Source of the DNA: Halovenus carboxidivorans
GTDB lineage: Archaea; Halobacteriota; Halobacteria; Halobacteriales; Haloarculaceae
Direction of reading: 5' to 3'
Assembly (NCBI RefSeq): GCF_009831575.1
Contig: NZ_WUUT01000005.1
Span: 248,001-312,000, forward strand
DNA length: 64,000 nt
Shown here: positions 43,935 through 59,736 of the stretch, in pieces
How positions within the stretch are numbered: position 1 is the stretch's first letter
How the letters are laid out: every line of letters begins with the position of its first letter
Notes under the pieces: model-generated
Seen by the model: only the letters and a program-made list of their open reading frames with translations
Database searches by the model: none
What the model was told of the DNA's origin: nothing
Program-made: the position numbers and the translations under genes

Positions 43935-45686
43935 TCAGACCGCCAGGAAGGTGCTGACGACCACGCGAGTCAGGATGGCAGTGAGTGCGGCGATCCAGGA
44001 CATCGCTACGAAGTGGAGGTAGGTGTTGATCTTGTGACCCCCGTCGACGGTCCGGATCATCAGCGCCGAAAGCATCGCCGAGAACATGATGACGACGACC
44101 AGCAGAAACTCGATCAGCGGGATGTTGTACATTTCGGTGTTGATGAGTTGGCCGGCGAACCCGCCAGCGTTGCCGATATTGATGTTCATGTTGCTGAGAA
44201 TACGGACGACTTCCAGTCCGATGAAGAAGGCGAACGTCGCCGCCGCGGTGATCCCGTACAACAGCCCGATCAGCGTCGTCGCCGCCTGACTGCGCTGCTG
44301 ACGGAGGCGGTTGACCTCGCTCATGTTCTCACCGATCAGTTCCCCGAGGATCTGCGGGTCACCGCCCATCTCCCGGCCGATCAGGTACATCTCACTGAAC
44401 GTCTGGATCAGGTACGAACGACAGTCGGCGGTGAAGTACCGCCAGGCCTCGGCGGGTTCGATCCGCATGTTGAGCCGCTTGTACAGGTCGTCGATGTTCT
44501 CCGTCAGCGGCCCGAAGTCTTTCTCCCGCAGGGTGCGCAACACGTCGGAACTGGTCGACTGTTTGACCGACTCGGTCGTTCCGAGCGCCCGAATGAAACT
44601 CGGAAACTCGTCGTCTCGGGCCTTGACGAGTTTCTCCTGGCGATAGAGTACGATCCCCGGAATCAGAAGCGGGGTCACCGGGATCACCGCGTACAGCGGC
44701 AGCGGCATCGGAGTCCCGAAAAAGGGGATGAGCATCGAGATGCGGATCGGAAGGATCCCGAGCAGACCGCCGTAGGTGACGAACGTGACCAGCAGTGACA
44801 GCGCCACGCCGGTCCAGAAACTCGCCCTGATTCGAGGCTCTGCTTGGGAGGGCTTCTCCGGCGGGTGATACCACCGCGGGTCGTACGGCGAGAGCGAACG
44901 CAGGGCCATGTAGAACCCGCTCTGGATGAAGATGTACATCACGATGACGGCGCTGACGGTCATCGTCGGATCGGTCCCGGTCAGCACCGGCAACACGACC
45001 GCGAACACCAGCGCGAACGTCATCGACAGCACCATCGACAGGTAGAGGTCTTTCATCACGTCGAGATTGTTCAGCGTCGACTCGTAGACGGTCGAGTACT
45101 CCTGGATGATACTCTCCTGCTCGGTGAGCAGATACTCACGCAGGGACTGACCGGCGCTGATGGTGTACGCCAGACGCTCAAAAAAGTCAGCGACGGTGTC
45201 GCTCGGAACTTCCTGAGCGCGGCGACGGCAGGCGTCGTCGAGACTTTGGTTCCACGTGTCGACGAGTTCGACGACTCGGCCCATCTCCTTGGCGAGTTCG
45301 CCGTACTCCTCTTCCTGTGCCAGCGACCGGAAGACCTCCATCCGGTCGATTTTCGTGATAGCCAGCACCGTCATGTGCGTGACCATCAGGTGGAACTGGT
45401 TGTCGAGTTGGCGACGGCGCTGGCTGACGAGAATCTTCGGATAGAAGACCGCCGACGCGAACGCGAGCAGTCCCAAAAGCGGGATCGGCACGCGGACGAC
45501 CAGCGGCTGGCCGGTCAAAAAGAAGGGCGCGGCAATCGTCACGAAGAAGAACGCGAGTGCCGGGACCAGAATGAACGTGATGTACTGGCCCATCGGCATC
45601 TGCATCCGGCGGTAGGACTCAAGCAGCGACTTGATGTTCTCCGTAACCGTCAGGTCAATCGCCGGATCCGCACTATCAGTAGCCAT
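43935..45686 (-). CDS. arlJ: ArlJ (FlaJ) archaellum membrane platform
   Basis: ArlJ is the polytopic membrane protein on which the archaellum filament is assembled and rotated by ArlI. The 583 residues include two GspF/TadC-like halves with hydrophobic segments such as YITFILVPALAFFFVTIAAP, MSMTFALVFAVVLPVLTG and LGILPIRISMLIPFFG, and the cytoplasmic loops rich in basic residues that contact ArlI (FRSLAQEEEYGELAKEMGR; IGREMGGDPQILGELIGENM). It is the last gene of the operon. Its ATG overlaps the arlI stop by 1 nt. Confidence 0.96.
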   Translation of the reverse strand: MATDSADPAIDLTVTENIKSLLESYRRMQMPMGQYITFILVPALAFFFVTIAAPFFLTGQPLVVRVPIPLLGLLAFASAVFYPKILVSQRRRQLDNQFHLMVTHMTVLAITKIDRMEVFRSLAQEEEYGELAKEMGRVVELVDTWNQSLDDACRRRAQEVPSDTVADFFERLAYTISAGQSLREYLLTEQESIIQEYSTVYESTLNNLDVMKDLYLSMVLSMTFALVFAVVLPVLTGTDPTMTVSAVIVMYIFIQSGFYMALRSLSPYDPRWYHPPEKPSQAEPRIRASFWTGVALSLLVTFVTYGGLLGILPIRISMLIPFFGTPMPLPLYAVIPVTPLLIPGIVLYRQEKLVKARDDEFPSFIRALGTTESVKQSTSSDVLRTLREKDFGPLTENIDDLYKRLNMRIEPAEAWRYFTADCRSYLIQTFSEMYLIGREMGGDPQILGELIGENMSEVNRLRQQRSQAATTLIGLLYGITAAATFAFFIGLEVVRILSNMNINIGNAGGFAGQLINTEMYNIPLIEFLLVVVIMFSAMLSALMIRTVDGGHKINTYLHFVAMSWIAALTAILTRVVVSTFLAV

Positions 45687-47365
45687 TAGTCTTGCCTGTA
45701 GATATCGAAGGGGAGTCCTTCGACACCGTCGCGCTGGAAGTCAGTTATCAGTTCGTTCACTTCGTGGTAGCCGACGATCCCCTCCTGGATCGCCCGCTCG
45801 ATGATCCGGGCTCGGAAGTCCAGATCGTCGTAGATATCCCGGGTATCCTCGTAGCCGAGCAGGGTCGCAATCTGTTCTTCGAGGACGTAGGAGTTGTTCC
45901 GGCCCTGGAAGACGATTTCGTCCTCGACGGGATCCCAGTAGAACGCCTGGCGGGTGACGACGCCGTCCATCTCCTTGGAGTAGCCCTCGATCTCCTGCAC
46001 CGAGGTGACGCGTCGGAGCACGTCGTCGCCCTGCTTGACTCGGTTCTGGAACAGCGCCACGTCGGCGTTGTCCATGAACGTCTCGGGGATGTTGATCGGG
46101 TCGCCGGTGAACCGCTGGATCATCGAGACGATATCGCTGGCGTGGAAGGTCAGCATGACGGGGTGACCGGTCTGTGCCGCCTGGAACGCCATCCGACCCT
46201 CCTCGCCACGAACCTCACCCACGATGATGTAGTCCGGGCGGGATCGGAGCGCGGCCGCGACCAGATCGAACATGGAAATCGAGGTCTCCTCGTCGTCACC
46301 CTCCCGGGTCAGCAGTTGCTGCCAGGTGTCGTGCGGCGGCATGACCTCGGCGGTGTCCTCCGCGGTGTAGATCTTCGCATCGCGGGGGATGAACGCCATG
46401 ATCGAGTTCAGCGTCGTCGTCTTCCCGGAGGCCGTCTCACCGACGACGAAGACGGTCTGCTCGTTTTCGAGACAGAGCCAGAGGTACGCTGACAGTTCCG
46501 GACTGAGCGTGTTCCAGGCGGTAATCTGGAAGATCGACAGCGGCACCTCGTCGCCCTGACGGATCGTCAGCGAGGGGCCTTTCAGGCTCACGTCGTCGGA
46601 GTAGATGAGATTCAGACGCGACCCGTCCGGCAGCGTCGAGTCCACGATCGGATCGGAGTCACTCACCGGGTCGCCCATCCGCTCGCCCATGTTCTTGAGC
46701 CACTGGTCGAAGTGCTCGTCGCTCTCCCACTCGACGGTGGTCTCGATCATGCTGTAGACGGAGTGATCGGTGAAACACTGGTTCGGCCCGATCACGTGGA
46801 TGTCCTCGTTCGCCGGGTCGCGCATAACTGGTTCGAGCGGCCCGAGGCCGACGATATCGCGGTTCAGCCGATACCGGATGTTCTCGTAGGTCTGCTCGGT
46901 GAGTTCGACCTTGCCCACGTCGGTGATGTTCTTCAGGCGGGTCAGGACGCCGCTGTCGGACTCCGATTCCGGCTCCTTGATCTTCGTCGTCTCCTCCATC
47001 AACTCCTCGATGCGGTCGTCGTACTCGGCCTCGTCCTGTGGGGCGGGTTTGGTGACACTGCGTTCGAGCAGTTTGTCCCGAACGCGGTTGAAGACGGACC
47101 ACTCGTCGTCCGAGAGGTCCGGCTCGATGACGTAGTATTTCATGTCCTGTCCCACGTCGCCGTAGATGTGGCAGTAGATCGGCCCCCCGACCGGGTAGAG
47201 CACGTTCGGCCGATCCGACTCGTACTCGTCGTCGGCCTCCTCGATGAACAGCGGGAACTCCCCCGTGATCTGTTTGAACTTCATCAGGTGCTCACGCAGG
47301 TGGGGCCGACGGGCCGCGTGTTGCCTGAGTTCGTCCGAAGGAGTTGGCTGTCCGTGCTCTGTCAT
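45686..47365 (-). CDS. arlI: ArlI (FlaI) archaellum motor ATPase
   Basis: ArlI is the hexameric type II/IV secretion-family ATPase that powers both assembly and rotation. The 559 residues contain Walker A VVGETASGKTTTLNSIM (about residue 308), the Asp box VMPPHDTWQQ, Walker B PDYIIVGEVRGEEGRMAFQA and the His box QTGHPVMLTFHA. The N-terminal ~230 residues form the ArlI-specific domain. Two nt separate it from arlH1 upstream. Confidence 0.97.
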   Translation of the reverse strand: MTEHGQPTPSDELRQHAARRPHLREHLMKFKQITGEFPLFIEEADDEYESDRPNVLYPVGGPIYCHIYGDVGQDMKYYVIEPDLSDDEWSVFNRVRDKLLERSVTKPAPQDEAEYDDRIEELMEETTKIKEPESESDSGVLTRLKNITDVGKVELTEQTYENIRYRLNRDIVGLGPLEPVMRDPANEDIHVIGPNQCFTDHSVYSMIETTVEWESDEHFDQWLKNMGERMGDPVSDSDPIVDSTLPDGSRLNLIYSDDVSLKGPSLTIRQGDEVPLSIFQITAWNTLSPELSAYLWLCLENEQTVFVVGETASGKTTTLNSIMAFIPRDAKIYTAEDTAEVMPPHDTWQQLLTREGDDEETSISMFDLVAAALRSRPDYIIVGEVRGEEGRMAFQAAQTGHPVMLTFHASDIVSMIQRFTGDPINIPETFMDNADVALFQNRVKQGDDVLRRVTSVQEIEGYSKEMDGVVTRQAFYWDPVEDEIVFQGRNNSYVLEEQIATLLGYEDTRDIYDDLDFRARIIERAIQEGIVGYHEVNELITDFQRDGVEGLPFDIYRQD

Positions 47366-47367
47366 AG

Positions 47368-48132
47368 TTATGCCACGCTACGAGATTCGATAACGATGCC
47401 GGTCCCCTGTCGGACCGAGAAACCGATCGTGTCACCGACCTGCTCGCCCATCCCCGCGAACCGCAACACGTTGATCTGCCGGCGCACCTCGTTGCCCACT
47501 TCCACCATCTCCAGTTCGATGAACACGTCCGCAATCGACCGGAACGGTCCGAGTGCCTCTTCGTCTAGCGTCGTCGGGTCCACCGTCAGGATGATCACTT
47601 TCCCTTCGGAGATGATATCGCGGAAGAAGGAGATGATCTCCAGGGCCGCCTGGCGCTCCTCGTTCTCCCGGACCAAGGCCTCGAACTTCGGATCGTTACG
47701 CAAAATCGCGTCGAAGGTGTCGATGATAACCACGTCCGAGTCCCACATCACCTCCGCCTCCATCAGTCGGCGTAGCAACTCTTTGCGGTCGTCTTCCTCG
47801 TCGTCCATCGTGAACGTGTTTTTGGAATCGCCGATCGCGGCGTGGAGATAGAGAATGTTCTCGTCGAGCATGTGATCGACCATGCCGTAGTCCAGCGAGT
47901 GCATCTGCTCTAAAAACGAACCGACGGTCAGTTCCGTCGACAGCAGCGTCACCATGGTCCCCTCTTCGCAGAGACCGTAGGAGAAGCGCTGGCTCATCGC
48001 GGACTTGCCGGCCCCGTACTCGCCTTCGATCAGAACGATACTTCCGGGGGGCAGACCGCCACCGAGTTCCTTGTTCAGCCGGTCCCGTTCACCGAGTCCG
48101 ATCGAATACAGGTCCTGTTGTGCCAGACTCAT
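47368..48132 (-). CDS. arlH: ArlH (FlaH) archaellum KaiC-like ATP-binding protein, copy 1
   Basis: ArlH is a KaiC/RecA-fold protein that binds ATP and couples ArlI to the cytoplasmic ring. The 254-residue protein has Walker [16 protein letters not shown] and Walker [13 protein letters not shown]. It is a near-perfect duplicate of the ArlH encoded at 50732-51496, differing only at residue 62 (Thr here, Ser there). At DNA level long identical tracts alternate with clusters of silent changes. It directly precedes arlI. The 166-nt gap before it (48133-48298) is GC-rich and shows no gene. Confidence 0.96.
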
Positions 48133-48298: not shown

Positions 48299-49498
48299 TC
48301 ACAGCGGCTCACCTCCGCCAAAGACGGCCGTTTGCTGTGCGGCGTCACCTCCGTTGAGTTGGTCGATGTATTCGAGGCTCTGTCGGTGGTGGTCGACCGA
48401 GAGCGATCCGCGCTCGCCGCTCTCGAACTTGTCGAGGTGCGCCTCGAGCTGGTCTGCCACCGGCTCGGTGATCCAGTCGATAGTTTCGTAGTACCGGACC
48501 GCCTCCGAAGCACCCCGGGAACCGAGCTCGTCGACGAGATATTCGAGCCACTCGATGACGACCAGATCACCGGTGAGGCCGTCCGGGACCTGGGTCAGAT
48601 ACGGTTTGCCGGATTCCGGCGAGGACGTATCTGTCGTCTGCTCGGTTTCGGACCGTTGGCTCACAGACGATTCAGAGACGGTTTGTTCGGCCGCAGGCTC
48701 CCTCGGGTCTTCGACGGTGTCGTCGAACAACTCGTCGTCCCCGATGTCGTCGGCCGTATCGGTCGTGTCACTCGCGACCTCCTCGTCCTCGAACTGGGCT
48801 GCCGTATCGTCGGTGTCACCGACCTCCTCGAACTCGGCTTCGTCGTCGAGTTCGCCTTCGATGTCGTCGAACTCCGCCTCGTCGTCGAGCTCGCCACCCA
48901 CCTCCTCGAACGCTTCGTCGTCTGCGTCCGTGGACGACTCCTGGAAGGCGTCGCCCATCTCGGCATCGACCTCTTCCTCACCGCCGTCTGGGTCCTCCTC
49001 GACGAGGTCGTCGTCGAAAAAGCCCTCGGCGTCGGCCTCGGCGATGTCCTCGTCGACGTCCTCCTCTTCCTGCTCCTCGTCGTCGGTAAACAGACCGAAG
49101 GAACTGTCCTGTGCCTCCATCTGGCCGCCGCCCATCCCCATCCCGGCGTCCATCTCGTCGGCGAAGGGATTGACGCCCCGGGTCACCATCTCGTAGATGT
49201 CCAGCAGTTTCCGGACGTTCTCTTCGACCTCTTCGACGCTGTTGGAGATCTGCTCGTTCTCGTTGCGAACGGTGTTCACCGTCGAGGAGAGACTGCCGAC
49301 CTCGTTTTCCAGTTCGTCCAGCCGGTGTTCCAGTTCGTCGACGTTCCCGCCGCCACCGCCGGCCATCTCGTCGCCGCCCTCCATCTCGTCGAACCCGTCG
49401 TCTAATCCGCCCAACTCCTCGTCGCCTTCGAGACCGCCGAGGTCGTCCCCGCCCTCGTCCAGATCGCCCAACCCGCCGAGGTCGTCGCTACCACTCAT
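48299..49498 (-). CDS. ArlC/D/E-type archaellum switch-complex protein, copy 1
   Basis: A 399-residue cytoplasmic adaptor. After an acidic Gly/Asp N-terminus comes the ArlC coiled coil ([20 protein letters not shown] through [20 protein letters not shown]), a long acidic linker, and the C-terminal archaellum D/E domain (SGKPYLTQVPDGLTGDLVVI, then WLEYLVDELGSRGASEAVRYY). ArlCDE proteins bind the Che adaptor CheF and the ArlHI motor and relay switching. Its coiled-coil region is identical in DNA over 291 nt to the gene at 55120-56523, whereas the C-terminal domain has diverged. It follows actin-like gene 1 after 74 nt. Confidence 0.92.
   Translation of the reverse strand: MSGSDDLGGLGDLDEGGDDLGGLEGDEELGGLDDGFDEMEGGDEMAGGGGGNVDELEHRLDELENEVGSLSSTVNTVRNENEQISNSVEEVEENVRKLLDIYEMVTRGVNPFADEMDAGMGMGGGQMEAQDSSFGLFTDDEEQEEEDVDEDIAEADAEGFFDDDLVEEDPDGGEEEVDAEMGDAFQESSTDADDEAFEEVGGELDDEAEFDDIEGELDDEAEFEEVGDTDDTAAQFEDEEVASDTTDTADDIGDDELFDDTVEDPREPAAEQTVSESSVSQRSETEQTTDTSSPESGKPYLTQVPDGLTGDLVVIEWLEYLVDELGSRGASEAVRYYETIDWITEPVADQLEAHLDKFESGERGSLSVDHHRQSLEYIDQLNGGDAAQQTAVFGGGEPL
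49114..49404. repeat. 291-nt identical ArlC-core repeat, copy A
   Basis: This stretch, coding the ArlC coiled coil and neighbouring Gly/Asp-rich sequence, is base-for-base identical to 56019-56309. Identity falls off sharply at both edges. The absence of silent differences inside, while the rest of the genes differ widely, indicates recent gene conversion. Confidence 0.9.
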
Positions 49499-49572
49499 TG
49501 TGAGCCATATTCGCCAGTCTGCCTATTCAATCCACCGTTTGTGATATCAAACGTGATAATAGTTTGGGGCCG

Positions 49573-50643
49573 TCAGCCGACGAATCGCGTCGCGATACGG
49601 TGAGCCCCGAGCGTTGCAGCGATATCGGGGCGCTGGGGAGCGGTGACAGTCAGGTCCTCGTCGACGACCGACCTCACCCGGCGCTGGAACTCCGCGACGA
49701 GACCTGGGATACAGGCCATGCCGCCGGTGAGGACGATTGGCTGGTCGAGCGCGAGCCGATGGACCCGGTGGTACTGGCTCGACAGTGCCGGGAGAAACTC
49801 GCCGGCGAAAATATCGACGACTCCGTCGAGATACTCCTCGACGGGATCCATGATCGACCGCTCGATAGTGAATTCGTGTCGACCGCCGCCGGGTTGCTGG
49901 ATGACGTCCGTCACGGGCTCGAACGACTCGAAATCGGCGTGTTGCTCTTTGTACTCCCGGGCGGTGTTGATGTCGATGTGCACCCGGCTCTGTGTCTCGT
50001 TTTCGACGTTGCTGATGATCTTCCGGTCGACCTCGTTTCCGGTGGTCCGCCCGCTCCGGTAGGGGGCGATCTGTTCGCCGCGGCGAAAGGCGGCGGCCTC
50101 GACGTGTGTCGCGCCGAGATTCATCGCCGCGAAGACCTGCTCGATGGCTTCCAATCCCTCGCCCAGCGCCGGAATGGCGCCGCAGAGCATCTCAGGATAG
50201 CGTTCGATGCCGACCTGACCGATCGGACTCTGTTCGATCACCCGCCGGAGGTTCGCCTGGCCGGCCTCGTCGTCGCTCATCGGAGTGACGTAGACGACGG
50301 CACTGTGTTCGGGCACGTCGTGTGACGCCACGACTGCATCGAAAAACTGACTCGTGAGTTCAGTCTGTCGGCCGGCGTCGGGAAGTCCGGATCGGAGCGG
50401 AAACTCCACGCTCTCGGGATACTCCGCGGCTGCGTCGTCGCCGTAGGCGTACTTCGTCTCGCCCGTGATCGGATTCTCGTACTCTGCCAGACAGGTCAGC
50501 GTCTGGACGACCTGGACTCCGGAGCCGTCGGGTGCGGGAAACGCGATAACCGTCCGCGTTGACCCGATTTTGACGCCGACAGGCACTGGCGAACCGCCGT
50601 CCGTGACGGCATCGTCCGACCCGTGGTCGGCGCCTCGATACAT
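49573..50643 (-). CDS. actin/MreB-fold protein in the archaellum cluster, copy 1
   Basis: A 356-residue protein with an MreB/Hsp70-like actin-fold layout: phosphate-1 region VGVKIGSTRTVIAF, phosphate-2 region AAMNLGATHVEAAAFRRGEQ, helix pattern TGNEVDRKIISNVENE and TAREYKEQHADF as in MreB, and the adenosine motif IVLTGGMACIPGLVAEF. The phosphate-1 Asp (DxGT) is Lys, and the phosphate-2 Asp (DxGGG) is Asn with one Gly missing, so ATP hydrolysis is probably lost or altered. The ATG at 50643 lies 29 nt after a TATA-like GTTATAT at 50669-50675; a longer form from 50670 is possible. It sits between ArlH2 and ArlCDE and is paralogous to 52998-54122. Confidence 0.85.
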   Translation of the reverse strand: MYRGADHGSDDAVTDGGSPVPVGVKIGSTRTVIAFPAPDGSGVQVVQTLTCLAEYENPITGETKYAYGDDAAAEYPESVEFPLRSGLPDAGRQTELTSQFFDAVVASHDVPEHSAVVYVTPMSDDEAGQANLRRVIEQSPIGQVGIERYPEMLCGAIPALGEGLEAIEQVFAAMNLGATHVEAAAFRRGEQIAPYRSGRTTGNEVDRKIISNVENETQSRVHIDINTAREYKEQHADFESFEPVTDVIQQPGGGRHEFTIERSIMDPVEEYLDGVVDIFAGEFLPALSSQYHRVHRLALDQPIVLTGGMACIPGLVAEFQRRVRSVVDEDLTVTAPQRPDIAATLGAHRIATRFVG

Positions 50644-50668
50644 ATCTCTCCGTTCTCCGTACTCGGAC

Positions 50669-50675
50669 ATATAAC
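50669..50675 (-). promoter_or_regulatory. TATA-like box for actin-like gene 1
   Basis: On the minus strand this reads GTTATAT, centred 29 nt before the ATG at 50643. The same arrangement precedes actin-like gene 2, suggesting that each copy of the module carries its own promoter. Confidence 0.5.
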
Positions 50676-50731: not shown

Positions 50732-51496
50732 TTACGCCACACTACGAGATTCGATAACGATGCCGGTCCCCTGTCGGACCGAGAAACCGATCGTGTCACC
50801 GACCTGCTCGCCCATCCCCGCGAACCGCAACACGTTGATCTGCCGGCGCACCTCGTTGCCCACTTCCACCATCTCCAGTTCGATGAACACGTCCGCAATC
50901 GACCGGAACGGTCCGAGTGCTTCCTCATCCAGCGTCGTCGGATCGACGGTGAGAATGATCACTTTCCCTTCGGAGATGATATCGCGGAAGAAAGAGATGA
51001 TCTCCAGGGCCGCCTGGCGCTCCTCGTTCTCCCGGACCAAGGCCTCGAACTTCGGATCGTTACGCAAAATCGCGTCGAAGGTGTCGATGATAACCACGTC
51101 CGAGTCCCACATCACCTCCGCCTCCATCAGTCGGCGTAGCAACTCTTTGCGGTCGTCTTCCTCGTCGTCCATCGTGAACGTGTTTTTCGAGTCGCCGATG
51201 GCCGCATGCAGGTAGAGGATGTTCTCGTCGAGCATGTGATCGACCATGCCGTAGTCCAGCGAGTGCATCTGCTCTAAAAACGAGCCGACGGTCAGTTCCG
51301 TCGACAGCAGTGAGACCATCGTTCCTTCCTCACAGAGACCGTAGGAGAAGCGCTGGCTCATCGCGGACTTGCCGGCCCCGTACTCGCCTTCGATCAAGAC
51401 GATGCTTCCGGGGGGCAGACCGCCACCGAGTTCCTTGTTCAGCCGGTCCCGTTCACCGAGTCCGATCGAATACAGGTCCTGTTGTGCTAAGCTCAT
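50732..51496 (-). CDS. arlH: ArlH (FlaH), copy 2
   Basis: This is the second 254-residue ArlH, identical to copy 1 except for Ser instead of Thr at residue 62, with the same Walker A (GEYGAGKS) and Walker B ([10 protein letters not shown]). Haloarchaea normally have one arlH directly upstream of arlI; this extra copy is separated from arlI by actin-like 1, ArlCDE and ArlH1. It starts 1 nt after the membrane-anchored ArlCDE stop, so those two are translated as a pair. Silent differences from copy 1 are clustered (near 50917-50958, 51188-51215 and 51311-51335), with an identical block of more than 180 nt between the first two. Confidence 0.96.
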
Positions 51497-51497
51497 G

Positions 51498-52847
51498 TCA
51501 GTCCTCGCTCGCGTGCTTCAGCTCTTCGACGTAATCGAGGCTCCGAAGGTGGTGTTCGACAGAGAGGTCTTCCTGCGAAGCCTCCTCGAAAGCATCGAGA
51601 TACTCGTCCAGTTCGGCAACGGCGTCCTCGGTTAGCCAGCCGATTGTCTCGTAGTAGTCGAGCGCTCTGAGCGTGCCGTGGATGCCGACCTCCTCCACCA
51701 GGTATTCGAGCCACTCGACGGTCATGACCTCCGTCGAGAAGCCCTCCGGGAGCGAGTCGACGTAGGGCTTGCCCTCGCTGAGGTCACCGCCGGGCGCGGA
51801 CTCCGTCGCAGGCTGGACTACAGACGGCTGTTCCTCGACTGCCTCCGGTTCGACATCCGGTTCGGCACGCTCCCGTTCGGCGGCCACGTCGGCCGGTTCG
51901 TCGGTGGCTGTCGCCGGCTCAGTACTCGACTCTGCGGTCTGCGGCGTTTCCGTACTCGGCTCGGCGCTCTCCGGGGGTTCGATCAGTTGTCCTCCGTCGC
52001 TGGCGGCCGGTGCGGTGGACTCCCCGCCCGCGTCGATCATCTCCTCGGTGCCGAACTCCGGTTCGGGCCCCTCGGATTCGGGCGCCGCCTCGGAGTCGGA
52101 CTCGAAGGAGGTCTCGAAAGCGCCGTCGTCGACTTCCTCGACCGCTTCGACGGCCTCGTGTTCGTCGTCCTCCCGTTCGGTCTGCTCGGCCTGCTTGCGC
52201 TGCTGGAAGGCGTCGTCCGGTTCGCCGCCCGAATCGACGACCTCCTCGACGCTGTCGACACAGTGCTCCTCTCTGATCTCCGCCCCCTCGCTGTCGAACA
52301 GGTCGGCGGCGCTGTCGTCTGCGACATCCGTTTCGATCTCCTCGATCTCGTCCTCCTTCTCGAACTGCTCGTCTCCCGGGCTTTCGTGGGCTACGGCCGC
52401 CGTTTCGGGCTCCGCGTCACCGGCGAAGGGGTTGACACCACGGGTTGCCATGCGGTAGAGATTCAGGAGTCGACCGGTGTTCTCCTCGATATCGGTGACG
52501 CTCTCGGAGATCTGTTCGTTCTCGTTGCGGACAGTCTTGACCGTCGAAGAGAGGCTATCGACTTCGTTCTCCAGTTCGTCCAGCCGGTGTTCGAGTTCTT
52601 CGTCCCCGGACGCTTCGGACCGATCTCTCGTCGCGTTTTCGGCCGCCTTGCGCTCCGGTTCTGCGTCGGCGAATCCGGTCGTTCCGCCGTCGCTGATCGG
52701 CTCGCCGCCTCCGTCGTCGGTCGAGACTGCTCCCCGCAGGACAAAAACGGCCCCCAGCAAGGCAACGACGGCGACTGCGACGGCCGCTGCCGCCGCCGGA
52801 CCCTGCAGGAGAGACTGCAGGCTGGTCGCGAGGACAGTCGTACTCAT
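51498..52847 (-). CDS. membrane-anchored ArlC/D/E-type protein, copy 2
   Basis: A 449-residue archaellum adaptor with an added membrane anchor. Residues about 15-42 form one strong hydrophobic helix ([20 protein letters not shown]), followed by a charged stretch, the ArlC coiled coil ([27 protein letters not shown]), a ~230-residue acidic linker and the C-terminal D/E domain ([30 protein letters not shown]). Only a short N-terminus would lie outside, and the long part is cytoplasmic. Typical euryarchaeal ArlC, D and E are soluble; a one-helix membrane protein with a coiled coil is reminiscent of crenarchaeal ArlX. It has its own TATA box 27 nt upstream and is coupled to ArlH2. Confidence 0.9.
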
Positions 52848-52870
52848 AGATGTTATGTGAAGGATAACAC

Positions 52871-52877
52871 TTTTTAA
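52871..52877 (-). promoter_or_regulatory. TATA box for membrane-anchored ArlCDE
   Basis: The minus strand reads TTAAAAA, centred 27 nt before the ATG at 52847, which fits a leaderless transcript. It lies in the 150-nt gap (52848-52997) after actin-like gene 2; nothing else was seen in that gap. Confidence 0.6.
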
Positions 52878-52997
52878 TCTACCGTCTCCGGTCTCATAGT
52901 TGATACTATCGGCTCTCGCCGGAGTAGCGTCCGCAAAATGGCCGGAACTGCTCGGACAGTCGGTGAAACTGCGGCAGAGTGCCGATTCTTGACCTCG

Positions 52998-54122
52998 TTA
53001 CTGGGTTTCAGCGAGCTGTGCGGCGATCCGCTGAGCGCCGATCGTCGCCGCGAGGTCGGCTCGGTCCGGCGCGATAGCGTTGATTTCGCGGCCGAGTTCC
53101 TCGCTGGCGCGCTCCTCGAACTCCTCGACGATGCCGGGGATACAAGCCATCCCGCCCGTGAGGACAATCGGCTGATCGAGGGCGAGCTGATAGACCTTCA
53201 TGTGGTCGTTCGCCAGCTGTGAGAGGAAGGTGTTGGCGAACTCCTCGACGACGTCGTCGAGGTACTCGTCGACGGCCTCCATCACGGACCACTCGATTGT
53301 GAACTCGTGGCGGCCGCCGCCGGGCTGCTGGATGATGTCCGTGAAGGGTTCGAACTCGTCGAAATCGGCGTGTTGCTCCTTGTACTCCCGGGCGGTGTTG
53401 GTGTCGATGTTGACCCGGCCCTGGGTCTCCTCCTCGACGTAGTTCGCGATTGCCCGGTCGACCTCGTTTCCGGTCACGGCACCGGTCCGGAACGGCGAAA
53501 GTTGCTCGCCGCGGCGGTACGCAGAGGCTTCGAGGTTCGTCGACCCGAGGTTGAGCGCGACGAAAATCTCCTCGACGGCTTCGAGTTCGTTGCCGACTGC
53601 CGGAATCGCGCCACAGAGCGATTCTGGGTAGCTCTCGATCAGTCGGTTGCCGATGTCACTCTGCTCGATGACCTCTCGGAGGTTCTCGATCCCGGCGGGG
53701 TTGTTGATCGTCGGGACCGCGTAGACGACGACGCTGTCCTCGGGAATGTCGTGAGAGTCGATAACCGAATTGAAGAACTGTTTCGTTAGTTCGGCGCGGT
53801 CCTCGTCTTCCGGCAGGCCCGACCGGAGCATGTACTGGACCTTGTCCGGGTACTCCGTCGCTGCCTCCTCGCCGTAGAGATACTTCGTTTCCCCCGTCAG
53901 CGGATCCTCGTACTCGGCCAGACAGGTCAGCGTCTGGATGGTCCGGAGTCCGGCCCCGGTCTCGGACGGGAGCGCGATCACGGTTCGGGTGCTCCCCAGT
54001 TTGACCCCGATCGGTGTCGCGCTTCCACCCGACGACGCGCTTCCGACGTTCCCTGCGGACTCGGCGCTCTCTTCGCTTTCCGGTTGGCTCTCCTCGGCTT
54101 CTGCGTCTGCCTCGTTGCTCAT
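52998..54122 (-). CDS. actin/MreB-fold protein in the archaellum cluster, copy 2
   Basis: A 374-residue paralogue of the actin-like protein at 49573-50643, colinear throughout. After ~35 disordered acidic residues it shows PIGVKLGSTRTVIALPSETG (phosphate 1, Lys for Asp), FVALNLGSTNLEASAYRRGE (phosphate 2, Asn for Asp), TGNEVDRAIANYVEEE, TAREYKEQHADFDEF and IVLTGGMACIPGIVEEFEER. The same active-site changes in both copies imply that they predate the duplication. It is encoded directly after arlG. The ATG at 54122 is preferred over 54134 because of a TATA box 30 nt upstream. Confidence 0.86.
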   Translation of the reverse strand: MSNEADAEAEESQPESEESAESAGNVGSASSGGSATPIGVKLGSTRTVIALPSETGAGLRTIQTLTCLAEYEDPLTGETKYLYGEEAATEYPDKVQYMLRSGLPEDEDRAELTKQFFNSVIDSHDIPEDSVVVYAVPTINNPAGIENLREVIEQSDIGNRLIESYPESLCGAIPAVGNELEAVEEIFVALNLGSTNLEASAYRRGEQLSPFRTGAVTGNEVDRAIANYVEEETQGRVNIDTNTAREYKEQHADFDEFEPFTDIIQQPGGGRHEFTIEWSVMEAVDEYLDDVVEEFANTFLSQLANDHMKVYQLALDQPIVLTGGMACIPGIVEEFEERASEELGREINAIAPDRADLAATIGAQRIAAQLAETQ

Positions 54123-54145
54123 ACGAGCGGCCATTGAATGCGCTG

Positions 54146-54176: not shown

Positions 54177-54650
54177 TTACTGCTCCCAGACGAACACGTC
54201 CTCGCCGCCCTGGACTCTGACCTGAGCGCGGTTCTCACCCGGGTCGTTGATCGTGACATCGCTCACGTCGACCACAATCTCGACCACTTCGCCCTCGCTC
54301 CAGACTTCCGCACCCTCGAGTAGTGTGATCCGACCGGAGCCGATTCCCGTCACGAACTGGCCATTTATGAGGACATCGATGTCCTCTGGCTGTGTCGATA
54401 ACTCCGAACTGCCGGTGTTTTTGACGTACAGCGTGACGTTGGTCGTGCTGCCGCTGCTGTTCGTCGAGGTTGCGCCGGCGTCGTTGATGATCGAGATGTC
54501 GGAACGGATCTCGTCGCTGGTCGAGAAGCCCTGATCCTCGATTGCGCGGCTGATGTCGTCGACGGTCGTCGTCAGGAGACCGGCGACTGAACCCGCGACG
54601 AGCATCGCCGCGATGAAGATGATCAGATGGGAGACTGAGACGCTCGCCAT
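54177..54650 (-). CDS. arlG: ArlG (FlaG) archaellum stator-type protein
   Basis: ArlG forms, with ArlF, the pseudoperiplasmic filament thought to anchor the motor in the envelope. The 157 residues comprise an archaellin-like N-terminal helix (SVSHLIIFIAAMLVAGSVAG) and an outer beta-sandwich domain (TNVTLYVKNTGSSELSTQ; INDPGENRAQVRV). There is no processing site of the prepilin type. Two nt from arlF. Confidence 0.93.
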   Translation of the reverse strand: MASVSVSHLIIFIAAMLVAGSVAGLLTTTVDDISRAIEDQGFSTSDEIRSDISIINDAGATSTNSSGSTTNVTLYVKNTGSSELSTQPEDIDVLINGQFVTGIGSGRITLLEGAEVWSEGEVVEIVVDVSDVTINDPGENRAQVRVQGGEDVFVWEQ

Positions 54651-54651
54651 G

Positions 54652-55116
54652 TTAGTTCACCACCCTGATCTGTTCGGTAGCCGCCACTTCGTTCACCGTG
54701 ACGAGTTTCGCCGTATCTCCGTCTGCCGGGGTCGCCGGCAGGTCGTTGTCACCGATCGTGAGCGTGAGTTGTTCCTGGGGCGCCCAGAGTTCGTCCGCCG
54801 GCGAGTCCGTAATGCTGACGTTTGCCTGCCCGAACCCCGTGTAGTTACCACTCACCAGCAGCGAGAGTTCGAGCGGTTGGAGCGGTTCTGCTCCCGTGTT
54901 GTTCGCGATGATAGTCAGTTCACCCTGAGTTGAGTTGTACTCCGCTGTCGTGATGTTGATCGCGGTGTTCAGCGTCTCCACGTTTCCCTCCTGTGTTTCG
55001 ACCTGTGCCTCCTGTACCTGCTCGACTGCCCCCATCGTGGCCGAGTAGAAGGTTCCGAAGGCGATCAGGAACGCGACGAAGAGAAGGGCTGTGGCACCAC
55101 TGACGCTGAACCCCAT
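54652..55116 (-). CDS. arlF: ArlF (FlaF) archaellum stator protein
   Basis: ArlF binds the S-layer and caps the ArlG filament as part of the archaellum stator. The 154 residues have an N-terminal membrane helix (GATALLFVAFLIAFGTFYSA), a short coiled segment (VEQVQEAQVETQEGN) and a beta-sandwich outside domain with the typical ANNTGAEPLQPLELSLLV. It starts 3 nt after the upstream ArlCDE stop, so it belongs to that transcript. Confidence 0.93.
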   Translation of the reverse strand: MGFSVSGATALLFVAFLIAFGTFYSATMGAVEQVQEAQVETQEGNVETLNTAINITTAEYNSTQGELTIIANNTGAEPLQPLELSLLVSGNYTGFGQANVSITDSPADELWAPQEQLTLTIGDNDLPATPADGDTAKLVTVNEVAATEQIRVVN

Positions 55117-55119
55117 GTG

Positions 55120-56523
55120 TTAGTGCTGTCGCCCTCCGATCGAGTCCAGTCCGGAGGTAGCCGAGACGGTTCCGTTGAGTTGGTTGATGTACTCGAGGCT
55201 CTGCTTGTGGTGATCGATCACGAGCGAGCCACGTCCGGTCTCCTGAAATCCACTCAGATACGCGTCCATCTCGTCCGCAACATCTTCGCTGATCCAGCCG
55301 ACTGACTCGTAGTAGTCGATCGCTTTCGATGTCTCTCGAATGCCCGCCTGGTTCACCAGGAATTCGAGCCACTCGACGACGATCACGTCCGAACCGTAGC
55401 CTTCGGGAAGGCTGGCGATGTACGGTTTCCCGTCGGTCGAACTGCTCGCGGTCGACTCGCTTGTTGTCGTCTCTGTCGCCCCGCCGGCGGTCGTCGTCTG
55501 CGTCGACTGGGTTTCCGTCGCCTTCTGCTGGGCCGTTTCCTGCGTGGCTGTCTCTGCCGGCGTCTCCTCGACGGTCTCGTCGAAGAGGTCGTCGTCACCG
55601 AGGTCGTCTCCAGATTCCTCGACGCCTGCATCCGCGTCCATCTCTTCGAGACCCCCAGCCGCTTCGGCGTTGCCGACCTCCTCGAACCCGTCGTCGAGGC
55701 CATCGTCCATCTCCTCGAACCCGTCGTCGTCGAGACCGTCGTCGTCGAGGTCGCCCTCGTCGTCCCAGTCGGCTTCTCCGGACTCGTACTCGTCTTTGAG
55801 GTCCTCGAAGGACGTGCCGCCACCGCTGTCGTCGGAGGAACTCTCGGGTTCGTCGTCGACACCACCCATCCCGCCGAGATCGTCGGCGCCTTCGTCTTCC
55901 TCCTCGACGAGGTCGTCGTCGAAAAAGCCCTCGGCGTCGGCCTCGGCGATGTCCTCGTCGACGTCTTCCTCTTCCTGCTCCTCGTCGTCGGTGAACAGGC
56001 CAAACGAGCCGTCTTGACCCTCCATCTGGCCGCCGCCCATCCCCATCCCGGCGTCCATCTCGTCGGCGAAGGGATTGACGCCCCGGGTCACCATCTCGTA
56101 GATGTCCAGCAGTTTCCGGACGTTCTCTTCGACCTCTTCGACGCTGTTGGAGATCTGCTCGTTCTCGTTGCGAACGGTGTTCACCGTCGAGGAGAGACTG
56201 CCGACCTCGTTTTCCAGTTCGTCCAGCCGGTGTTCCAGTTCGTCGACGTTCCCGCCGCCACCGCCGGCCATCTCGTCGCCGCCCTCCATCTCGTCGAACC
56301 CGTCGTCTAGCCCACCGAGATCACCGCCGTCGTCATCGAGGTCACCGAGTCCGCCCAAATCGTCGCCACCGCCGCCGTCCATCTGGCCGCCGCCGTCGTC
56401 GGCCATCAGTCCGCCGCCACCGCCGCCGAGGTCGTCCCCACCGCCGTCGAGGGTCTCGCCGCCCTCTTCGTCCTCGTCGGCCATGATCGAATCGACCATA
56501 TCACGGATGCTCACAGCAACCAC
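55120..56523 (-). CDS. ArlC/D/E-type archaellum switch-complex protein, copy 3
   Basis: First gene of the archaellum operon. It encodes 467 residues: a Gly/Asp-rich N-terminus (GGGGGGLMADDGGGQMDGGG), the ArlC coiled coil shared with copy 1, a long acidic then Thr/Ser-rich linker, and the D/E domain (GKPYIASLPEGYGSDVIVVE; WLEFLVNQAGIRETSKAIDY). Residues from GGLDDGFDEMEGGDE to GFFDDDLVEE are almost identical to copy 1, including a 291-nt identical DNA tract. Possible starts are GTG at 56523 or 56514 and ATG at 56499; the exact one is uncertain because no TATA box lies at leaderless distance. Confidence 0.9.
   Translation of the reverse strand: MVAVSIRDMVDSIMADEDEEGGETLDGGGDDLGGGGGGLMADDGGGQMDGGGGDDLGGLGDLDDDGGDLGGLDDGFDEMEGGDEMAGGGGGNVDELEHRLDELENEVGSLSSTVNTVRNENEQISNSVEEVEENVRKLLDIYEMVTRGVNPFADEMDAGMGMGGGQMEGQDGSFGLFTDDEEQEEEDVDEDIAEADAEGFFDDDLVEEEDEGADDLGGMGGVDDEPESSSDDSGGGTSFEDLKDEYESGEADWDDEGDLDDDGLDDDGFEEMDDGLDDGFEEVGNAEAAGGLEEMDADAGVEESGDDLGDDDLFDETVEETPAETATQETAQQKATETQSTQTTTAGGATETTTSESTASSSTDGKPYIASLPEGYGSDVIVVEWLEFLVNQAGIRETSKAIDYYESVGWISEDVADEMDAYLSGFQETGRGSLVIDHHKQSLEYINQLNGTVSATSGLDSIGGRQH
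56019..56309. repeat. 291-nt identical ArlC-core repeat, copy B
   Basis: Identical partner of 49114-49404, on the same strand and about 6.9 kb away. Direct-repeat recombination between them would delete arlF, arlG, both actin-like genes, the membrane-anchored ArlCDE and ArlH2, leaving one chimeric ArlCDE. Confidence 0.9.
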
Positions 56524-56827
56524 CTCCGCTGACCGTCGTTCGGCGCGAGCGAGTCAGCGTCGACGCTCGCACGCCCCGGACGGACAGAAAGCTAGTTGTC
56601 GCGCTGTCTGACCCACTCATCATACATCAGGATCAGTGCTTACGCTCTTGAATGTATTGTTTCTGGTATCGCAATTGATAATACGAGTTTAATTTTGCCA
56701 TTATTTTTTCGGAACTTTCTACATTGCGCCGAAAGAAACGTCCGACTTTTCTTCCAGGGAGTTTCAGCGCTGAGAATCGTCAGACACGGATCGGCGTCTG
56801 TCAGCCGTCTGACGGGGGCGCGGGGAG
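56524..56827 (-). promoter_or_regulatory. intergenic region upstream of the archaellum operon
   Basis: This 304-nt gap between cheD and the archaellum operon holds no gene I can support. Positions 56641-56725 are strikingly AT-rich for this genome, with minus-strand AAAATTAAAC at 56686-56696 and a long A/T run at 56697-56712. I take this as the main arl promoter region with a leader of up to ~140 nt, possibly also a T-rich terminator for the che genes arriving from the other side. Confidence 0.45.
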
Positions 56828-57349
56828 CTACAGCCGCTGGTCCTCGCGGTTCGCGCTCTTGACTAGGAGGTTGCCCGTCTCGGTTTCGAGTCTGAGCGAC
56901 CGGCCGTGGTCGCCCCCCACATCCTCGCCTACGATGGGGATATCTGCAGCGGTGAGCGTCTCTCTGACCTGCGTGATGTTGCGGTCTCCGATGCCCGAGC
57001 CACCCTCAGAGAAGTCGAGCATGTCGCTCCCGCCGGCGATTTTCGCTTCGAGTTCGCCCGCGTCGGCACCGGCGGCCTCCATCTCGTCGATGAGGAGTTC
57101 GGTGCCCGTGTCGGCGAACTTCGCGGGCTTGCCGTCGTCCATCTCGTCCGCGACCGGCAACATCACGTGAATGAGTCCCGCGATGTTGGTCGGGTCGTGA
57201 TAGAGCGCGACCCCGACACAGGAGCCCAGTCCGCTGGTCGTCAGCTCTGCGGTCTCCGTCGTTACTTCGTACTCCGCGATCCCGACCTTGATCCGTTCCG
57301 GCCGAGAGTCGGTCGCTTGCTCGGTCTGACTGCCGTCGTACACCTTCAT
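56828..57349 (-). CDS. cheD: CheD chemoreceptor glutamine deamidase
   Basis: CheD deamidates receptor glutamines and partners CheC in adaptation. The 173-residue protein has the catalytic Cys44 in LGSCVGVALY and His61 in GLIHVMLPVAD, and the conserved GGSDML and IGDRNI segments. The N-terminal ~20 residues are an extra charged extension. It starts 2 nt after the cheC stop, last gene of a cheY-cheC-cheD operon. Confidence 0.95.
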   Translation of the reverse strand: MKVYDGSQTEQATDSRPERIKVGIAEYEVTTETAELTTSGLGSCVGVALYHDPTNIAGLIHVMLPVADEMDDGKPAKFADTGTELLIDEMEAAGADAGELEAKIAGGSDMLDFSEGGSGIGDRNITQVRETLTAADIPIVGEDVGGDHGRSLRLETETGNLLVKSANREDQRL

Positions 57350-57351
57350 GA

Positions 57352-58566
57352 TCAGAAGATCTGTCCGGCGTCGGCGTCGGTCTTGTCCGCCCGTTCGACG
57401 TCGAGTTCGTCGAGCGCTTCTCGAAGCTCCTGTTCGTTCGGCAGCGCGTGAATCTCGCTCTCGAACTCGACTTCGTCGGTCTTCATCTTGGAGTCGATAA
57501 CGAACGCGTGCTGTTGGTGCTGGCCGAGTTGGGCCGCCAGCGGGTCGATGATCGCACGCCCCATGTCGTGAACCAGCCGGGGTGGGGTGTGATCGACGGA
57601 CTGCTGGAGCACGTTCGCCCAGCCGTCGACGAAACCGCTGGTCATGATGTTACCGAGCTCCTCGATGGCCATCTTGTGCTGTTCGGTCAGTTCGTCGCTG
57701 TCCATCTCGACGGGCATCAGTCCCTCGGCGACGGTGATCGCCGACTGCTCGTCGAACAGCACGAGCAGGAACCCGCTGGGCGCGCCGGTGAACTCGACTG
57801 CCGTCCCGACGAAGGTCTCCTCGCCGAACTGCCGCGGAACGTCCTCGATCGGGACGAACGAGATCTGTGACACCTCGGCCTCCGTCTCGATGCCGGACAT
57901 CTGTTGGACGTTCTCCGCCGCGCGCTCGGTCCCTTGTTGTGTCATCTGGTTGAACACGGCCAGTTTCTCGATGGGAATGGCGTCGGCGTCGGTCTCGGCG
58001 TATTCGGCCATCAGCTCCGCCATCGGCTCGTACTCGGGAAGCATGTAGATGAAGAAGTTCACGCTCTCGCCCTCCCAGCCGATCTCACTGCGGAAGACGA
58101 ACAGTTGATCGTGCTCGCCGGTCTCGGGCCCGTCCGGGAGGATCTCCGCACCCTCGCCCTCGATATATCCCGGTGGCGTGTGTTCGATGCTCGCACCGAG
58201 ATGTTCTGCCCAGCCGTCGATGAACCCGCTCATCATGATGTTCCCGACCTCCTGTACGGCGGATTGTCCCATACTGTCGTCGGTGGACGCGCCGGGCATC
58301 ATCGACTCGACGATCTCTTCGGTCTGGCCCCGCTCGAAGACCAGAACGGTATCGCCACTCAGCGCGCCCTCGAAGCCGAACTCGACGCCGACGAACGATC
58401 CCGCACCGAGTTCTTCACCGATATCGGCCCGGTCGATCAGCGAGATCTTCGTCACGTCGACAGTCGCGTCGATGCCCGTCATCTGAGCCATCGACGCGGT
58501 CGCTTCCTGTGCGCCCTCGTGGGCTAACCGGTTGAATGTGTCGAGCGACTGAACATCGATCTTCAT
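57352..58566 (-). CDS. cheC: tandem CheC-domain chemotaxis protein
   Basis: A 404-residue protein with two CheC-like domains in a row (about residues 1-205 and 206-404). CheC removes phosphate from CheY-P. Each domain keeps one E-x2-N active motif, in VQEVGNIMMSGFIDGWAEHL and IEELGNIMTSGFVDGWANVL. The matching motif of the first helix (E-x2-N in classical CheC) is missing in both: FNRLAHEGAQEATASM and FNQMTQQGTERAAENV. Each domain would thus have one phosphatase site. It stands 2 nt from cheY and 2 nt from cheD. Confidence 0.92.
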   Translation of the reverse strand: MKIDVQSLDTFNRLAHEGAQEATASMAQMTGIDATVDVTKISLIDRADIGEELGAGSFVGVEFGFEGALSGDTVLVFERGQTEEIVESMMPGASTDDSMGQSAVQEVGNIMMSGFIDGWAEHLGASIEHTPPGYIEGEGAEILPDGPETGEHDQLFVFRSEIGWEGESVNFFIYMLPEYEPMAELMAEYAETDADAIPIEKLAVFNQMTQQGTERAAENVQQMSGIETEAEVSQISFVPIEDVPRQFGEETFVGTAVEFTGAPSGFLLVLFDEQSAITVAEGLMPVEMDSDELTEQHKMAIEELGNIMTSGFVDGWANVLQQSVDHTPPRLVHDMGRAIIDPLAAQLGQHQQHAFVIDSKMKTDEVEFESEIHALPNEQELREALDELDVERADKTDADAGQIF

Positions 58567-59025: not shown

Positions 59026-59736
59026 TCAGAGTTTGACGCCGTCGTCGTCTCGGACCGCTTCGAGGAGGTCAGCGATGGTGTCGTTCGGTCCCAGATCGGT
59101 CGATTTGACGAGGTTCTCGACGCTCTCCGGCGGGTACCGAATCGGGACGTTCGATTCCATCAGCAGGATGCCGAGCACCTCTTCGACCGGCATGTTGCTG
59201 TCGACCTGCTGACCGTACCACAGCATCAGGCTCTCGAACACCGTGATCAGGTCGTTCGATTCGAGCCGGCGCTGGCTGACCGCCCCGTCGAACTGAGCGG
59301 TCACGTCGAAGGCGTACTTCGAGTTACTTCGTTCGTATTTCTGTCGGAGCCATCGGCGGACATCTGATTCGGTGAGCTGACCGTGTTGGCTGCCCTGGGC
59401 GCTCGGTTGATTCCTCGGCCGACGGTTTCCGGGCTGGTTGCCGCCGCGACCGGCAGCGCCACCGGCCTGGCCGCCCTGACCCCCCGGGGCAGGCTGACCG
59501 CCCGACCCACCGCGACCGCCGCCTCCGCCCCGTTGTGGGTTCTGCGCGGGATCACCACCGCCCCGTGACTGATTGCCCCCGCTTCCCGTCCGCGTTTCCG
59601 GCGAGACGACGAACCGTCCCTCGTCGATCTGCTCGACGTGCTCGCTCTCGGTGATGTCGAGCTCGTTCGGGGAGAGGATCGCCCCCTCGTCGGCGCGACC
59701 CCCGTTGTTCGTGTCGTCGCCTGACCCCTCGACCAT
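59026..59736 (-). CDS. uncharacterised protein with Gly/Gln-rich linker upstream of che genes
   Basis: Not a family I can name with certainty; it may belong to a haloarchaeal family seen near che/arl loci. The 236 residues have an acidic start with ILSPNELDITESEHVEQIDE followed by GRFVVSP, a ~90-residue Gly/Gln/Arg/Pro low-complexity linker (GGGGGRGGSGGQPAPGGQGG and so on), and a folded helical end (TESDVRRWLRQKYERSNSKY; VFESLMLWYGQQV; MPVEEVLGILLM). The linker resembles disordered, phase-separating segments. Upstream of cheY on the same strand, with 97 nt between. Confidence 0.72.
   Translation of the reverse strand: MVEGSGDDTNNGGRADEGAILSPNELDITESEHVEQIDEGRFVVSPETRTGSGGNQSRGGGDPAQNPQRGGGGGRGGSGGQPAPGGQGGQAGGAAGRGGNQPGNRRPRNQPSAQGSQHGQLTESDVRRWLRQKYERSNSKYAFDVTAQFDGAVSQRRLESNDLITVFESLMLWYGQQVDSNMPVEEVLGILLMESNVPIRYPPESVENLVKSTDLGPNDTIADLLEAVRDDDGVKL

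Follow-up and report, generated by a model that had tools for sequence, protein, structure and literature searches.

The window, a stretch of 64,000 nucleotides from Halovenus carboxidivorans, contains an archaellum (arl) gene cluster on the minus strand. In the order of transcription it comprises a DUF7500 gene (59026-59736), cheC (at 57352), cheD (at 56828), ArlCE1, ArlF, ArlG, a first salactin gene, TM-ArlCDE, ArlH1, a second salactin gene, ArlCE2, ArlH2, ArlI and ArlJ (Table 1). Three of these genes encode proteins of the ArlCE type, and the present analysis concerns the middle one, TM-ArlCDE, which runs from an ATG at 52847 to a stop at 51498 and codes for 449 amino acids. The same layout, but with one ArlH gene, was found in isolate SHR40 (G146, locus L074), and a short contig of the MAG LUM.6 (G160, L075) carries a portion of it; an assembly artefact was thereby ruled out as the source of the triplication. 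The other congeners that were examined have one ArlCE each (L078, L079, L084). The single ArlH of L074 follows TM-ArlCDE and the one in the examined part of L075 follows ArlCE2; the two ArlH genes of the window differ at 35 of 765 nt.

Two of the neighbouring gene families deserve a separate remark. The DUF7500 gene has a CsmR-like site of its own (two mismatches), and the presence of homologues in most related haloarchaeal arl/che loci makes its product a candidate motility protein. Salactin was found directly after arlD, on the same strand, in 10 of 20 arlD regions that were partly chosen for it (L212-L217, L219, L220, L230 and L231), including that of a Haloferax-type genome; the salactin paper describes poor synteny (PMC10746226). 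Judged by gene order, this placement suggests a link between salactin and the archaellum. Both salactin genes of the window genome are located in the arl cluster, and its ArlD is encoded on another contig (L218, contig C3) with no adjoining salactin, unlike in many relatives.

Table 1. Features of the arl cluster, with positions in the window
Feature	Positions	Strand	Basis
TM-ArlCDE: FlaC coil, D/E domain and predicted N-terminal membrane helix	51498..52847	minus	ORF list, Pfam, AlphaFold
N-terminal hydrophobic helix, residues 17-40	52728..52799	minus	KD19 2.81, AlphaFold helix
Coiled coil, residues 81-135	52443..52607	minus	AlphaFold; FlaC_arch 88-141
D/E domain, residues 359-444	51516..51773	minus	Arch_fla_DE (Pfam)
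TATA-like element TTAAAAAG, centred about 26 nt before the TM-ArlCDE ATG	52870..52877	minus	sequence
CsmR-like palindrome TATCAACTATGAGA of TM-ArlCDE, its end 44 nt away from the ATG	52892..52905		motif from PMC13286277
CsmR-like site of ArlCE1, one mismatch	56667..56680		motif scan
CsmR site 46 nt upstream of the ArlCE2 ATG, exact match	49545..49558		motif scan
Non-hydrophobic leader ORF of 40 codons, in place of the helix codons of relatives	56501..56623	minus	stop 10-20 nt past ArlCE1 start
ArlCE1, soluble paralogue; post-helix SIRDMVDSIM and ELK linker motif kept	55120..56523	minus	sequence
ArlCE2, soluble paralogue without helix and ELK motif	48299..49498	minus	sequence
ArlF	54652..55116	minus	NCBIfam
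ArlG	54177..54650	minus	NCBIfam
ArlH1	50732..51496	minus	NCBIfam
ArlH2	47368..48132	minus	near-copy of ArlH1
ArlI	45686..47365	minus	position, conserved order and homologues in related loci; not by profile
ArlJ	43935..45686	minus	position, conserved order and homologues in related loci; not by profile
Salactin 1, directly upstream of TM-ArlCDE	52998..54134	minus	profile/annotation
Salactin 2, between ArlH1 and ArlCE2	49573..50670	minus	profile/annotation

Domain architecture of TM-ArlCDE

Residues 88-141 of TM-ArlCDE match the Pfam family FlaC_arch (PF05377; E 2.9e-17, 63.3 bits against a cut-off of 27.8) and residues 359-444 match Arch_fla_DE (PF04659; E 1.4e-23, 83 bits against a cut-off of 21). 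Ahead of these domains lies a strongly hydrophobic segment, whose best 19-residue Kyte-Doolittle window (KD19; residues 19-37) reaches 2.81. In related loci, the corresponding values are about 2-3 for three membrane proteins (ArlF, ArlG and ArlJ), whereas soluble ArlH, ArlI, CheC, CheD and salactin reach at most about 1.5 within their first 120 residues. The ArlCE copies without anchor give about -0.3 to 0.9. AlphaFold predicted helices at residues 3-13, 17-40 and 81-135 and three more in the D/E domain, connected by a disordered linker; the pLDDT of the predicted membrane helix was low (about 55-70). The helix is conserved in the orthologue of isolate SHR40 (L074:9009-10526). A PDB sequence search gave nothing beyond a bZIP coil, Foldseek returned no significant match, and a plasmid tblastn search gave no match.

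TM-ArlCDE shares with the ArlCDE proteins the coil, the D/E domain, the location in the arl cluster and a position in the ArlCE tree, and a single N-terminal membrane helix of the ArlX type is predicted ahead of its cytosolic coil. The earlier note on this DNA had described a coiled coil and a D/E domain behind a strong N-terminal helix, which is borne out by the Pfam matches, KD19 and AlphaFold, and had assigned the gene a TATA box of its own, which is indeed present. The membrane-anchored ArlCDE-type protein that it postulated is well supported.

Promoter spacing, selection and topology

A palindrome was spotted in the promoters of these genes before it was compared with the published CsmR motif, TATCA(N4)TGATA, which is located upstream of the BRE/TATA in Haloferax (2026 ChIP-seq study, PMC13286277). 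Allowing at most two mismatches, the window holds ten sites of this type against 3.9 expected, a number reached by no shuffle, and five of the ten precede DUF7500, cheC, ArlCE1, TM-ArlCDE and ArlCE2. Of 70 named loci, 58 have the helix-bearing ATG exactly 45 or 46 nt downstream of the end of the palindrome, and several of the exceptions reflect another in-frame start picked by the script. In the window the distance is 44 nt. Moreover, pN/pS over codons 2-34 of ArlCE was 0.18-0.32 in four species groups, which indicates purifying selection, and for the helix region of TM-ArlCDE the comparison of two species gave a pN of 0.31 against a pS of 0.60. On the basis of the fixed spacing and these ratios, the helix of haloarchaeal ArlCE is very probably translated, and it is highly likely that the helix of TM-ArlCDE is translated and, by prediction, inserted. 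A start of translation after the hydrophobic segment, which the earlier note had named as evidence against an anchor, is contradicted by the fixed distance from promoter to ATG; a wrong start codon was likewise ruled out by that spacing together with the purifying selection.

Upstream of ArlCE1, and likewise in G126 (the Haloferax-type genome), G115 and G138, a non-hydrophobic ORF of 38-47 codons begins with the ATG that stands at the usual spacing behind the palindrome. The stop of this leader overlaps the ArlCE start in L074, G126, G115 and G138; by locus, such leader ORFs lie at 56501-56623 in the window and in L203, L088 and L204. Such an ORF, ending at or near the start of ArlCE, suggests that the two may be translationally coupled.

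The charges that flank the helix fit an orientation with the N-terminus outside and the C-terminus inside: K/R is absent ahead of the helix in 59 of 63 N-termini, and in 58 of the 63 it occurs at least once in the 12 residues that follow the helix. From this pattern a signal peptide was judged unlikely. The exceptions are the Halorussus-type proteins, in which K2 precedes a less hydrophobic segment that has no K/R directly after it. The Halobacterium protein (MKF...), which lies outside the set of 63 sequences, resembles these in having K2 and no K/R directly after the segment, and the topology is therefore less clear in both groups.

Distribution of the helix and division of features among the paralogues

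The search for the same architecture elsewhere in haloarchaea, as advised in the earlier note, covered 78 named loci from four families, and in nearly all of them ArlCE starts with a homologous hydrophobic segment (KD19 1.2-2.4). These loci are not a census but relatives among the matches listed, in order of their similarity to an alignment in which most proteins bear the helix. Helix-bearing relatives are found in the Haloarculaceae, in Halorubrum and other Haloferacaceae, in Halobacterium and in Halorussus, and their hydrophobic segments have a common ending (e.g. VPALLVVLSGGLVGMSIKSMFDSIMSDDE in Haloarcula, APTAAWAVATLGLVGASVLDRFLDD in Halorubrum, MKFIHLTPTAIVFVQLGALAVGMASWLDDDE in Halobacterium and MKLIGLSDQFVHLLGTGLVGMGIMDFMDEEE in Halorussus). 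The helix is absent from the genomes of families f6 and f7 (Natrialbaceae-like) and of three genera of f4, including G126. The latter we take to be a Haloferax, as its PCNA is closely like that of Haloferax volcanii (3hi8) when read by eye; the PCNA query matched 3hi8 from end to end with a single visible difference. Considering its absence from f6, f7 and Haloferax, the helix must be dispensable for some archaella. Outside the Halobacteria, the N-termini of relatives are mostly short and basic, with no hydrophobic helix. A gain of the helix in a single lineage was ruled out by its wide distribution. The helix is the usual, and probably the ancestral, state of haloarchaeal ArlCE, so that the word "added" in the earlier note does not apply: the derived proteins are the two soluble paralogues. 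In one Halorubrum genome (L083, around 8056) the helix lies in another frame than the rest of ArlCE, probably through a frameshift in glycine-coding repeats, whether by sequencing error or phase variation.

In a tree of the coil and D/E domain, the bootstrap of which is not fully settled, the three copies of the window and their orthologues in L074 and L075 form one clade (97/94) that is nested inside the helix-bearing ArlCE of the Haloarculaceae. The simplest reading is that ArlCE was triplicated in the Halovenus-type clade and that ArlCE1 and ArlCE2 lost the anchor. Among the three paralogues the anchor is kept by TM-ArlCDE only. The ELK linker motif, which occurs in nearly all single-copy ArlCE that were tested, is kept by ArlCE1 only, leaving ArlCE2 with neither anchor nor ELK. 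The motifs FGLF and AEGFF are kept in ArlCE1 and ArlCE2 and lost in TM-ArlCDE, and the coil and linker of the latter have diverged while the coils of the former are unchanged. The best local match between ArlCE1 and ArlCE2 is identical at 402 of 412 nt, a near-identity suggestive of gene conversion. A frameshift that would join a helix to ArlCE1 was ruled out, as there is no hydrophobic frame upstream of that gene. TM-ArlCDE lacks linker motifs that other anchored ArlCE proteins keep, and may therefore fulfil the ancestral function only in part.

Proposed role and comparison with known systems

We propose that TM-ArlCDE is an anchored ArlCE paralogue that tethers the switch ring of the archaellum to the membrane in this genome, an account that, taken as a whole, we consider reasonably probable. 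A leaderless mRNA would be made from the CsmR-type promoter and translated from the first ATG, and therefore the helix would be included. The helix would then cross the membrane once as an anchor, leaving a short N-terminus outside and the acidic linker, the coil and the D/E domain inside. The switch ring of Haloferax binds ArlH and CheF. By tethering such a ring, TM-ArlCDE would play the role of the single ArlX helix in Crenarchaeota. The anchored ArlCE would represent the ancestral haloarchaeal design, and the triplication of the Halovenus type would have divided its features, with the anchor in TM-ArlCDE, ELK in ArlCE1 and the unchanged coil in both ArlCE1 and ArlCE2.

In both the window and L074, TM-ArlCDE stands between a pair of salactin genes, a position that lends itself to another explanation, namely that the helix is real but that the protein has left the switch ring and serves as a membrane scaffold or polar adaptor linking archaella to the adjacent salactins. 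Salactin filaments grow from the cell poles (PMC10746226), salactin follows arlD in many genomes, and the coil and linker of TM-ArlCDE diverged while the coils of ArlCE1 and ArlCE2 stayed identical. Against this reading stand the intact D/E domain and a promoter that matches those of the other ArlCE genes in type, and deletion of salactin in Halobacterium made no difference to motility (PMC10746226); we consider such a function unlikely. The long branches, together with the loss of FGLF, AEGFF and ELK in both species, might also mean that the helix inserts but that TM-ArlCDE is a redundant and decaying relic of the triplication. Against such decay stand the open frame, the gene's own CsmR site and TATA box, the conserved D/E domain, its retention in three species and the excess of pS over pN in the helix region, which make a relic quite improbable. 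That the mature protein is soluble, its hydrophobic segment being a cleaved signal peptide or untranslated, seems to us very improbable. Many relatives do have an internal in-frame ATG (GMSIRN), and K2 of Halorussus and Halobacterium resembles the n-region of a signal peptide, but the distance from palindrome to ATG is fixed, the region is under purifying selection, 59 of the 63 N-termini have no basic n-region, and the known partners of the domains are cytoplasmic.

Returning to the membrane tether, a wider picture can be drawn in which the ancestral ArlCE ring was tethered in an ArlX-like manner and the Halovenus-type motor has its tether, linker motif and coil split over three paralogues and its ring linked to salactin filaments. 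In this full form the picture is rather unlikely.

A tether bears on how the motor of the archaellum is held still against its rotor, and reviews build on the view that ArlX is tethered and ArlCDE is not. Three of them state that ArlCDE has no transmembrane helix or tether (PMC8978795, PMC12024892, PMC9087265), whereas an older review called FlaC, FlaD and FlaE of Methanococcus voltae membrane proteins (PMC4187195). No earlier report of the haloarchaeal ArlCE helix was found in the open-licence literature. TM-ArlCDE has the FlaC coil, the long acidic linker, the D/E domain, the place in the arl cluster and the CsmR-type promoter in common with haloarchaeal ArlCE (FlaCE). The difference lies in the tether, which is absent from the description in the reviews and from the Haloferax-type G126 but predicted in TM-ArlCDE and most of its haloarchaeal relatives. 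FlaC, FlaD and FlaE of Methanococcus belong to the same coil and D/E families, although in most of the non-haloarchaeal relatives examined a short basic segment takes the place of the hydrophobic helix.

ArlX (FlaX) is the cytoplasmic ring protein of Crenarchaeota and forms rings of about 30 nm. According to the literature, it has no D/E domain and no link to chemotaxis in this group. It has a single membrane helix at the N-terminus ahead of a cytosolic coil, as predicted for TM-ArlCDE, and ArlH as partner and a role in the ring would be expected for both. The likeness seen here is one of design. Of the intermediate between ArlX and ArlCDE suggested in the earlier note, the similarity of design is supported and the evolutionary intermediate is not. 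If most haloarchaea do tether ArlCE, a ring fixed to the membrane would be common to both archaeal designs, and Haloferax, the haloarchaeon mainly used as a model, would be the exception that lost its tether.
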